From Cognatishimia sp. 1_MG-2023 (GTDB taxonomy: Bacteria; Pseudomonadota; Alphaproteobacteria; Rhodobacterales; Rhodobacteraceae): DNA of 64,000 nt. How positions within the stretch are numbered: the first letter of the stretch is position 1; every line of letters begins with the position of its first letter. The stretch spans positions 62,001 to 126,000 of the forward strand of contig NZ_JAUORX010000005.1 of the NCBI RefSeq assembly GCF_030548175.1, written 5' to 3'. The notes below the pieces were generated by a model. That model was not told the origin of the DNA, did no database searches, and saw nothing but the letters and a program-made list of their open reading frames with translations. Positions 16,498-64,000 of this stretch are shown one piece after another. A program made the translations under genes and the position numbers.

Positions 16498-16509
16498 GAG
16501 ACCGCCTTT
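16482..16509 (+). terminator. Terminator of the coiled-coil gene-zapA operon
   Basis: aaaggcggtctc / gagaccgccttt, a 12-bp stem with loop gtaa that contains part of the zapA stop codon. The T tract is short (three). Confidence 0.85.
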
Positions 16510-20996: not shown

Positions 20997-21025
20997 AAAA
21001 AAAAGGCCGAGCAATAAGCTCGGCC
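20997..21025 (-). terminator. Strong Rho-independent terminator
   Basis: Perfect 8-bp stem ggccgagc/gctcggcc with a five-base loop, followed on the minus strand by eight T. It ends the candidate small RNA and could also stop read-through from the upstream LysR gene before purL. Confidence 0.92.
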
Positions 21026-21078
21026 GAAGTCCAACAGGGAGGTTGAAGATGATGAGCGTATAAGCAATCACCGTCTTC
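20997..21078 (-). ncRNA. Candidate small RNA with three hairpins and own promoter
   Basis: Read on the minus strand, a promoter (TTGAAA-N17-TATTTG) leads to a start near 21078. The predicted RNA of about 82 nt folds into hairpin 1 (GAAGACGGUGA, 21078-21068, with UCAUCAUCUUC, 21055-21045; one mismatch, one wobble), hairpin 2 (UUCAAC-CUCCCU-GUUGGA, 21047-21030), whose loop CUCCCU is complementary to ribosome-binding sites, and a terminator (GGCCGAGC-UUAUU-like loop-GCUCGGCC then eight U, 21025-20997). Anti-Shine-Dalgarno loops of CCUCC type are known in trans-acting RNAs of Rhodobacterales; this RNA is not identified as any of them. No open frame of note lies inside. Confidence 0.6.
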
Positions 21079-21085
21079 GAGAGAT

Positions 21086-57953: not shown

Positions 57954-57989
57954 ATCGCATCGGTCTCTTAATTGAGACCGATACGCGAT
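57954..57989 (+). other. Hairpin after tRNA-Pro
   Basis: atcggtctc-ttaatt-gagaccgat (57959-57982) with outer atcgc/gcgat pairs. It lacks a T tract, so its role as terminator or processing signal is open. Confidence 0.4.
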
Positions 57990-62419: not shown

Positions 62420-62890
62420 TTAATCTTCGTCCAAAGTATCCCCCATCAAAAACCGCGGACCGGCACCTTTTTTGTGGATGCGATCCTTAGGATTATAAAG
62501 CTTACACGCACTTAGCGACAGGCAGCCGCAGCCAATACAGCCATCCAACTTATCGCGTAACGCCTGCATTTGCGTGATCTTCGCGTCCAAATCCTTGCGA
62601 AACCCCTTAGACAATCGCGCCCAATCCGCTTTAGTCGGTGTTCGATTTTCTGGAAGTTTTTCAAGGCTTTGCTGGATTTCCTTAATGGGGTATCCAAGCT
62701 GTTGCGCAATCATAACAAACGACAACCGCCGAATATCAGCGCGTTCATATTGCCGCTGGCCGCCATCCGTTCGGAACGGCGAAACCAGCCCTTCCTCTTC
62801 ATAGAATCGAATAGCCGACGGCGCGAGCCCGGTTCGTTCCGATATTTGACCAATACTTAAGCCGCGATGTCTTATCTGTCTGACAGGCAA
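62420..62890 (-). CDS. soxR: Redox-sensitive regulator SoxR
   Basis: A 156-residue MerR-family regulator with a [2Fe-2S] cluster. The DNA-binding helix-turn-helix is at residues about 10-40 (LSIGQISERTGLAPSAIRFYEEEGLVSP), and the four cluster cysteines are in CIGCGCLSLSAC (spacing x2, x, x5). Oxidation by redox-cycling compounds or nitric oxide activates it. It is divergent from a VOC protein gene, with a SoxR-box-like palindrome in the gap. SoxS is absent, as usual outside enterobacteria. The start at 62890 has no strong ribosome site visible. Confidence 0.95.
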   Translation of the reverse strand: MPVRQIRHRGLSIGQISERTGLAPSAIRFYEEEGLVSPFRTDGGQRQYERADIRRLSFVMIAQQLGYPIKEIQQSLEKLPENRTPTKADWARLSKGFRKDLDAKITQMQALRDKLDGCIGCGCLSLSACKLYNPKDRIHKKGAGPRFLMGDTLDED

Positions 62891-62971: not shown

Positions 62972-63346
62972 ATGCGCCTCGAACATTTAAATGTCACCGT
63001 ATCTGACCCCAAAGGAACGGCATCTATCTTGCAAGATTTGTTTGATTGGAAAATCCGTTGGGAAGGGGTCGCAAAGGATAATGGATACACCGTTCACATC
63101 GGTGAAGATGATACATATCTTGCATTATATTCGCCTGATAAGGCGCTGAATAAATGTGATAATTCATACACCACCGTATCTGGATTGAACCACATTGGCG
63201 TGGTTGTCGATGATTTAAAAGCCATAGAAAATCGCGTGATTAATTCCGGGTTTAAGCCACACAATCATGCCGATTATGAACCCGGAGAACGCTTTTATTT
63301 TGATGGCCCAGACGGCATTGAATTCGAGGTCGTCAGCTACCGTTAA
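62972..63346 (+). CDS. VOC-family protein (glyoxalase-like)
   Basis: A 124-residue vicinal oxygen chelate protein with two beta-alpha-beta-beta-beta modules. Metal ligand-like residues are His4 (MRLEHLNVTV) and Glu near the end (FDGPDGIEFEVVSYR). It resembles bleomycin/fosfomycin resistance-type and glyoxalase proteins; no substrate can be named. It is divergent from soxR and likely under its control, so it probably answers oxidative or redox-cycling stress. The start at 62972 has AGGAGAG upstream. Confidence 0.9.
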   Translation: MRLEHLNVTVSDPKGTASILQDLFDWKIRWEGVAKDNGYTVHIGEDDTYLALYSPDKALNKCDNSYTTVSGLNHIGVVVDDLKAIENRVINSGFKPHNHADYEPGERFYFDGPDGIEFEVVSYR

Positions 63347-63353
63347 CCTTTTG

Positions 63354-63386
63354 ATCGCGGCCTTTCTGGTCTCTCGCCGCGATTTT
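63354..63386 (+). terminator. Weak terminator after the VOC gene
   Basis: atcgcggc (63354-63361) pairs with gccgcgat (63376-63383) with a 14-base loop, followed by ttt. Confidence 0.5.
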
Positions 63387-63400
63387 GGCCAAGGATTTCC

Positions 63401-63436
63401 TTGACCCAAAGTGAGCGACTTTCTAAGGTCGCTCAC
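63401..63436 (+). promoter_or_regulatory. Promoter with inverted repeat before the cysS leader
   Basis: TTGACC (63401-63406), 17-base spacer, TAAGGT (63424-63429). A perfect 9-bp inverted repeat gtgagcgac/gtcgctcac (63411-63419, 63428-63436) overlaps the spacer and -10 box, which could be an operator or an RNA hairpin. The predicted start is at or next to the ATG at 63437. Confidence 0.55.
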
Positions 63437-63481
63437 ATGAACAACGCACAAAACATCATTATTTGCTGCATTACCTGCTGA
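63437..63481 (+). CDS. Candidate cysteine-sensing leader peptide of cysS
   Basis: A 14-codon open frame, MNNAQNIIICCITC, ends in three cysteine codons (all TGC) among the last five, then TGA. It lies 84 bases before the cysS start codon. Cysteine codons next to the stop, before the gene for cysteinyl-tRNA synthetase, are the classic layout of a ribosome-stalling attenuator. The CUGCUG of the last codons (63475-63480) is complementary to CAGCAG (63538-63543) near the cysS ribosome site, and GCGGGC (63491-63496) pairs with GUCCGC (63533-63538), so alternative folds are possible. The start may be leaderless, with AAGG as a weak site eight bases upstream. Confidence 0.6.
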   Translation: MNNAQNIIICCITC

Positions 63482-63565
63482 AAATTTCAAGCGGGCTGTT
63501 CTTCTATTTCAAAAATGTCGTGAAGTTGATAAGTCCGCAGCAGTACTGCCGTGTAAGGACGAGCC

Positions 63566-64000
63566 ATGACGACGATCAAGCTACATAACTCAAAAAACCG
63601 TCAAAAACAGGTGTTTACGCCGATTGATGCGCAAAACGTGCGGATGTATGTTTGTGGCCCAACGGTTTATGATCGCGCCCATCTTGGAAATGCACGGCCT
63701 GTTGTTGTGTTTGATATCCTCAATCGTCTGTTGCGCCATGTCTACGGCGACGCGCATGTAACCTATGCGCGCAACTTCACGGATGTGGATGACAAAATCA
63801 ACGCGCGCGCAGCCGAAAGTGGTCGTGAAATCGCAGAAATCACAGCAGAAACAACAGCTTGGTTCCTTGACGACATGGCAGAACTTGGCGCGATAGAGCC
63901 CGACCACATGCCGCGCGCCACGCAATATATTCCGCAAATGGTCGAAATGATCGAGGGTTTGATCGCCAAAGGCCACGCCTATGCCGCCGAAGGGCATGTG
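63566..64000 (+). CDS. cysS: Cysteinyl-tRNA synthetase (5' part, cut by window edge)
   Basis: The first 145 codons of a class I aminoacyl-tRNA synthetase. It begins [20 protein letters not shown] and has the zinc/HIGH region [26 protein letters not shown] at about residues 30-55, with [12 protein letters not shown] following; this is diagnostic of CysRS. AAGGAC lies six bases upstream of the ATG. The window ends inside the gene. It is preceded by a candidate cysteine leader peptide. Confidence 0.96.

Follow-up and report, generated by a model that had tools for sequence, protein, structure and literature searches.

What is the role of the small cysteine-rich frame that precedes the cysteinyl-tRNA synthetase gene cysS in Cognatishimia sp. 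1_MG-2023? In the 64,000-nucleotide stretch of this genome analyzed here (the window), a 14-codon frame, MNNAQNIIICCITC, runs from an ATG at 63437 to a TGA stop at 63479-63481 upstream of cysS (Table 1). Its TGC Cys codons occupy 63464-63466, 63467-63469 and 63476-63478. A first-pass annotation of this DNA had drawn attention to the frame, which is present where it was claimed, and the identity of cysS is backed by the TIGR00435 model, on which the full protein (taken from locus L001, with its start at 63566) scores 433 bits against a cut-off of 340. As in trp-type attenuators, the candidate regulatory codons match the amino acid of the downstream gene, with Cys codons standing before cysS. 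We propose that the leader is, with high probability, a cysteine-specific, ribosome-dependent attenuator of cysS.

Table 1. Positions of the leader elements and of cysS in the window
Feature	Position	Strand	Basis
Putative leader promoter, TTGACC (63401-63406), 17 bases, TAAGGT (63424-63429)	63401-63429	+	Sequence; signals in 113 leaders
Leader frame MNNAQNIIICCITC with TGA stop	63437-63481	+	Window sequence; conservation; C at -1; weak Shine-Dalgarno signal
Predicted helix P1, 5' strand GAACA, inside codons 1-3	63439-63443	+	Fold; covariation
Predicted in-frame hairpin, 63446-63452 with 63462-63469, one bulge	63446-63469	+	Single-sequence fold only
Predicted stop hairpin, CCUGCU 63474-63479 with AGCGGG 63490-63495	63474-63495	+	Fold; moderate covariation
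Predicted helix P2, GCGGGCU 63491-63497 with AGUCCGC 63532-63538	63491-63538	+	Fold; flank complementarity
Predicted helix P1, 3' strand UGUUC	63497-63501	+	Fold; covariation
Pyrimidine tract UUCUAUUUC after P1 (candidate weak U-tract or anti-Shine-Dalgarno)	63502-63510	+	Sequence inspection; leader comparisons
Shine-Dalgarno-like AAGGA of cysS	63555-63559	+	Inspection
cysS, first 145 codons	63566-64000	+	Open reading frame; TIGR00435 match

Frames of this kind recur before cysS. Under a strict rule, the frame starts with ATG, has 9-20 codons with at least two Cys and at least five Cys plus Ile residues in the last nine, and ends 45-175 nt before cysS. This rule is satisfied by 125 of 237 loci from all groups with at least 250 nt before cysS, compared with 0.08% of 2370 dinucleotide shuffles, in agreement with the earlier view that the clustering of Cys codons is hard to explain by chance. 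In the window's family, 98 of 132 loci satisfy the strict rule and 112 satisfy a relaxed rule that was applied without a shuffle control; the other 20 fail even the relaxed one. A Cys-type frame is found in all nine genus members examined. The first-pass annotation had called for an alignment across relatives, and there the Cys-rich frame is kept while other codons vary. In 132 leaders, Ile and Cys account for 32% and 24% of the residues after the first Met, Cys is encoded by TGC 363 times and by TGT 31 times, and the stop codon is TGA in 117. These leaders derive from 240 loci, 146 of which pass the relaxed frame rule; removal of 12 named non-Rhodobacterales loci and of loci with a cysS identity of 61% or less left 133, and removal of L234 together with a minimum of 10 residues left 132. 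Collapsing leaders at least 80% alike gave 113, of which 112 were usable where the cysS start could be set. The family comprised 158 genomes with a cysS match, and 35 were left out (27 listed rows and eight further).

A model built from 41 leaders was run against 24 family genomes; in 21 of them, including 14 that had supplied sequences to the model, the top match falls immediately before cysS. In 16 genomes of other families, the same model found matches only at E values of at least 0.1. One match elsewhere in the window's own genome (G000:C19:39947, E = 0.09) showed nothing leader-like on reading and was rejected. One family member (L029) keeps GAAGUUGCUAAGCCCGCC, the 3' part of the element, and has no leader frame upstream of cysS; judged from its sequence, this locus looks like a natural loss of the leader frame.

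The leader is not new in itself. The first-pass annotation had stated that no cysteine attenuator was described for cysS in this group, and this statement was mistaken, since the uORFC-8-2 motif was published in 2021 (Brewer et al., RNA Biol 2021, PMC8632094). The accessible part of that paper gives 145 examples, exclusively before Rhodobacterales cysS, with tandem Cys codons, and proposes ribosome-mediated attenuation with an intrinsic terminator. The window's leader likewise stands upstream of a Rhodobacterales cysS, as its cysS is nearest to those of named Rhodobacterales such as Roseovarius, and it has a short AUG frame with tandem Cys codons dominated by TGC. Stems like the two of uORFC-8-2, the first with the Cys codons, appear in our single-sequence folds, a likeness judged by the description in that part of the paper. 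The Cys codons usually lie at positions 14 and 15 in the published motif, whereas they lie at positions 10 and 11 from the leaderless ATG in the window; positions 14 and 15 are obtained in L012, L014 and L017 if an in-frame ATG four codons upstream is used. Moreover, a U run is described for all published examples, whereas it is weak on average here. Relative to the accessible part of that paper, the present analysis adds Hyphomicrobiales, a probably leaderless geometry, a predicted helix at the start codon (P1) and a competing helix (P2). A later survey with a similar pipeline contains, in its accessible part, no occurrence of cysS (PMC11109978). Among the titles listed by a search of the open literature, with closed journals and supplements outside its scope, none besides this paper dealt with cysS leaders in these bacteria. 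Rfam 15, including T-box and all other families, gave no match at gathering score in the window region and ten loci, and two weak unrelated matches at a relaxed threshold. Mycobacteria carry polycysteine short ORFs that are leaderless (Canestrari et al. 2020, via PMC9094748 and PMC9031893); these share with the present, probably leaderless frame this organization and contiguous Cys codons and are described in the parts of those sources available to us as cysteine-responsive attenuators, but they belong to another phylum and other genes. For mycobacterial cys leaders, the available text of Seliverstov et al. 2005 (PMC1262725) reports no conserved hairpin able to serve as a terminator.

Are such leaders confined to Rhodobacterales? 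Similar frames were found before cysS in Rhizobium (L071, L079), Ensifer (L083), Devosia (L085), Phyllobacterium (L097), Mesorhizobium (L100, L104), Bradyrhizobium (L080), Stappia (L062) and Cohaesibacter (L058). The order assignment was looked up for Ensifer, Devosia and Stappia and is our assumption for the Rhizobium, Phyllobacterium, Mesorhizobium, Bradyrhizobium and Cohaesibacter loci. A larger set of loci was taken as Hyphomicrobiales because of the likeness to the Ensifer cysS and consisted of the best 30 of 46 and the best 30 of 58 genomes with a cysS match, with one shared. In 45 of these 59 loci (26 of 30 in one family and 19 of 29 from the rest of the order), a leader score combining Cys, Ile, ATTA and a GCTRR end stood at a level seen in none of 1180 shuffles. 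Some of the loci that fell short hold a shorter or longer Cys frame by eye (L312, L324, L331, L338). Other families of the class supplied 40 loci, next in cysS likeness; of these, L247 alone has a clearly similar leader, and L249 may have one. The Hyphomicrobiales peptide differs, often reading MKTxxxICICxIIx and ending in NGC TAG, while its promoter, ATTATT-NGCT end and helices correspond to those of the Rhodobacterales type. For the comparisons below, a second-type set of 57 leaders was assembled after removal of L281, L289, L321 and near-duplicates; it includes leaders of families of unassigned order (at most L234, L247, L282 and L283). By sequence comparison, cysS devices of this kind appear also in Hyphomicrobiales, which is new here and stands against the published "exclusively" Rhodobacterales distribution, as given in the accessible text.

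Where does the leader transcript begin? The promoter hexamers lie where the first-pass annotation had placed them, with the claimed spacing, and because they are 17 bases apart there, transcription is expected to start at or beside the ATG. A simple sigma-70 scan of the window did not list this pair. Counted from the ATG, the -35 signal in 113 leaders is strongest at -36 to -33 and the -10 signal is strongest at -13 to -11, and C occupies position -1 in 81%. A TTG[AG]C, TTGAT or TTGTC motif begins 28-45 nt upstream of the ATG in 68 of 113 leaders, compared with 16 of 113 control windows. The mean anti-Shine-Dalgarno energy in the same leaders is weaker before the leader ATG (-3.3) than before cysS (-5.7). 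This geometry would place the transcription start at the A of the ATG, and the leader is probably leaderless. The earlier leaderless idea therefore stands, given promoter signals at a fixed distance from the ATG and the frequent C at -1, and the same two features speak against a start after 63481, the outcome that had been named as contrary to it. A comparable case in an alphaproteobacterium is the rnTrpL/peTrpL leader of Sinorhizobium meliloti, which, in the text available to us, likewise encodes a leaderless 14-residue leader peptide but is a trp attenuator associated with trpE (PMC10117765). The conserved GTTGCTAAG was weighed by eye as a possible internal promoter and set aside. The -10 element is spanned by a 9-base inverted repeat at 63411-63436 (GTGAGCGAC / GTCGCTCAC), which reaches to the leader ATG. 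In eight of nine genus species this place holds an exact repeat of 6-9 bases; the repeats are of several different sequences, as though selection acted on the ability to pair. The repeat lies upstream of the expected start.

A structural finding that is new here is a predicted helix, P1, that covaries among relatives and joins the first codons of the leader to the RNA just past its stop. In a swap test, the pairing of a segment with its own partner was compared with its pairing with the corresponding segments of other species. For the frame's first 13 nt and the segment from stop+14 to stop+32, z was -11.9, with none of 1000 permutations as strong, and P1 was the best of 630 finer window pairs, among which some overlapping windows are not independent. 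Runs of six or more contiguous Watson-Crick pairs are formed in 48 of 112 leaders; 500 swaps gave 8.9 on average and 18 at most. In all, 64 different helices of at least five pairs cover 78 of the 112. Of 56 sister-genome pairs, 44 favoured the native partner and 11 the swapped one. The second-type leaders (n = 57) agree: P1 ranks first of 409 window pairs (t = -6.9), at least six pairs are formed in 35 of 57 compared with 17.3 when swapped (maximum 25), and the native sister partner was better in 17 and worse in 6 of 25 pairs. In the window itself, P1 has only five pairs, and the fold of the leader's first 70 nt is only moderately more stable than that of shuffled sequences (z = -2.2; 17 of 500 shuffles were as low). 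When 113 leaders were placed in one anchored alignment, RNAalifold returned no consensus structure; a likely reason is that the position of P1 shifts by one or two bases from species to species. The sister-pair controls were non-neutral, three of four (two of the Rhodobacterales type and one of the second type) significantly favouring swapped partners, and weak sister-pair signals, namely those of the stop hairpin and of the tract with the Shine-Dalgarno site, are therefore to be read cautiously.

P1 also bears on whether the frame is a cysteine gauge at all. Small Cys-rich metal-sensing proteins exist, and the leader could encode a peptide with a job of its own, such as metal or redox sensing, whose link to cysS is incidental. 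However, codons 2-4 of the leader follow the P1 pairing, the Cys codons are kept near the stop, and the top match of the leader model falls just upstream of cysS in the 21 family genomes noted above. We regard such an independent peptide as very improbable and retain the attenuator reading.

The predicted in-frame hairpin touches the first two Cys codons. The stop hairpin, extended by pairing of 63480-63482 with 63486-63488, would cover the last Cys codon and the stop; its support is moderate (t about -4 in the Rhodobacterales type and -3.6 in the second type), with sister pairs at 25 versus 15 (p = 0.15) and 15 versus 4 (p = 0.019), respectively. The pairing of GCGGGC with GUCCGC that the first-pass annotation had suggested is conserved and corresponds to helix P2, which has an inner pairing of AUUUCA (63506-63511) with UGAAGU (63521-63526). 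Among 113 leaders, 92 hold both GCGGG and CCCGC, and the two motifs start 41-47 nt apart in 82 of them. In these 92 leaders, the pair just outside P2 is complementary in 65, compared with 39.3 expected (0 of 5000 shuffles), with C-G and G-C at about equal frequency; the second pair outward shows no excess (36 versus 34.0) and the inner flanking pair a small one (69 versus 64.7). In 41 aligned sequences, the share of paired P2 cells is 89.4%, a value that none of 500 shuffles equalled, and the covariation score was reached by 1 of 500, while further pair types did not rise above shuffles (431 of 500). Because GCGGG is used by both, the stop hairpin and P2 are predicted to be mutually exclusive. 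As in trp-type attenuators, the leader thus has two predicted structures that exclude each other, the stop hairpin (with P1) and P2. The free full-length fold of the window's leader contains P2 and lacks P1, and the folds of 16 relatives contain P1 in some cases and P2 in others. With the first 55 nt masked, which includes the first G of P2, the window's leader forms no P2 and its pyrimidine tract pairs with the Shine-Dalgarno site; masked to stop+3, it forms P2. The other pairing suggested earlier, CUGCUG with CAGCAG, forms in the window's own fold but does not generalize to relatives: CAGCAG is absent, by eye, from the other genus members inspected, and the nearest test (last codons against -30 to -12 of cysS) gave an unconvincing z of -1.8 in 113 leaders.

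How might these elements work together? The conserved frame, the promoter geometry, P1 and P2 are each backed by sequence comparison, and from them we propose the following scheme, in which we infer ribosome stalling, structural switching, the direction of control and the response to cysteine. Transcription would start at the ATG, and translation of the leader would proceed with no Shine-Dalgarno site. With ample Cys-tRNA, the ribosome would run through the leader and depart, whereupon P1 would form and the hairpin would close over the stop codon. This closed form, which ends in the pyrimidine tract, would keep cysS expression down. A shortage of charged Cys-tRNA would make the ribosome stall on the Cys codons and hold the strands of P1 and the stop hairpin apart, and the freed GCGGGC strand would pair downstream as P2, allowing cysS to be made. 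This arrangement raises the question of whether a ribosome initiating at the very first nucleotide of a transcript can control a fold made by that same end. The cysteine-gauge function is very likely, and three readings are offered for the output step.

One reading of the output, which we rate at somewhat below an even chance, is intrinsic termination, in which the closed form (P1 with the stop hairpin) and the pyrimidine or U tract would end transcription about 70-80 nt from the start unless a stalled ribosome prevents it. Brewer et al. proposed termination, according to the accessible text (PMC8632094), and the earlier remark that no U-rich terminator was seen needs nuance, since the nine bases after P1 (TTCTATTTC, 63502-63510) hold six T. 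Against this reading, U after P1 averages only 3.9 of 8 across 113 leaders. A tyrosine leader in the same genome, described below, has a hairpin followed by UUUUGUUGU, but in the Tyr leaders of relatives the U run decays and the hairpin stays, by eye. Furthermore, the conserved 3' strand of P2 lies past the supposed stop point. For the window's genus, termination is slightly ahead.

Alternatively, the tract after P1 may pair with the Shine-Dalgarno site of cysS in the closed form, with P2 removing the tract in the open form. We consider this masking possible but doubtful. In the 57 second-type leaders, the tract and the Shine-Dalgarno site came out top of 112 window pairs in a swap test (z = -5.1, 0 of 200), whereas the best Rhodobacterales-type pair reached only z = -3.3, in the 3' part of P2, and tract windows there reached -3.0 while other window pairs reached +4.0. 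Sister pairs stood at 33 versus 23 (p = 0.23) and 19 versus 9 (p = 0.087). The modelled accessibility of the Shine-Dalgarno site rose in the stalled state from 0.40 to 0.65 in the window and went up in 49 and down in 23 of 112 Rhodobacterales-type leaders (p = 0.0006), but the mean shift was only +0.05, and L003, L005 and L009 are among the examples that shifted the opposite way. The second type shifted by +0.044 (25 up and 15 down of 57, p = 0.12), and with most of the tract excluded from the model no difference was seen (29 up and 33 down of 113). Masking thus has partial support, mainly in Hyphomicrobiales. A broader proposal that we offer tentatively, and would not expect to hold in full, is an old cysS attenuator, probably predating the split of Rhodobacterales and Hyphomicrobiales, in which the first codons of a leaderless frame serve as the 5' arm of the switch, the RNA closes on its own 5' end and hides the start codon, the tract left exposed next to the closing helix acts as an anti-Shine-Dalgarno, and translation rather than transcription is switched.

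The third reading, which we consider unlikely, is that the closed form exposes to Rho a G-poor, pyrimidine-rich stretch after the leader stop that P2 would hide. The first 18 nt of this stretch contain 9% G, 30% C and 47% T in 92 leaders. An S. meliloti duf1127 uORF attenuator is thought to be Rho-dependent, with a 45-nt element (38% C, 18% G) right after the uORF stop, and requires elements both in the first uORF codons and after the stop; however, it is relieved by tetracycline and its uORF has a Shine-Dalgarno site, and the present stretch is short for a rut site of 70-90 nt, all according to the accessible text of that study (PMC12218461).

Under the preferred attenuator reading, a published motif that is untested, as presented in the accessible part of its paper, becomes a defined system spanning two orders, in which the strands to mutate are named. 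The analysis also points to leaderless attenuators as a possibly common device in Alphaproteobacteria, with trp, cys and a tyrosine leader as instances. The last of these, located through a match of the 41-leader cysS model (E = 0.004), lies outside the window in the same genome (L346, 378-465), reads MTQMTTIFMNYYHLPK and looks leaderless. Its hairpin, CACCUGCC / GGCGGGUG, precedes UUUUGUUGU, and the gene that follows (L346, 521-1264) is prephenate-dehydrogenase-like (PF02153, 1.3e-18). Similar frames occur in four more genus species (L349-L352), in some of which the U run decays while the hairpin stays. We count the presence of this leader in the same genome as support for the cysS attenuator reading.

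Several other elements were observed in the window. A small glyoxalase-superfamily gene (62972-63346, forward strand) lies just upstream of the leader and is divergent from a gene for a SoxR-type regulator (62423-62890, reverse strand; TIGR01950, above cut-off). Between the glyoxalase-like gene and the leader, a hairpin (ATCGCGGC / GCCGCGAT) with a GGTCTCT loop occupies 63354-63383, and GGTCTCT is also found within hairpins at 16503 (reverse strand) and at 57962 (forward strand, after the tRNA). The SorX small RNA (RF02784) was detected at 20999-21085 on the reverse strand, with 48.9 bits against a gathering score of 46.6.
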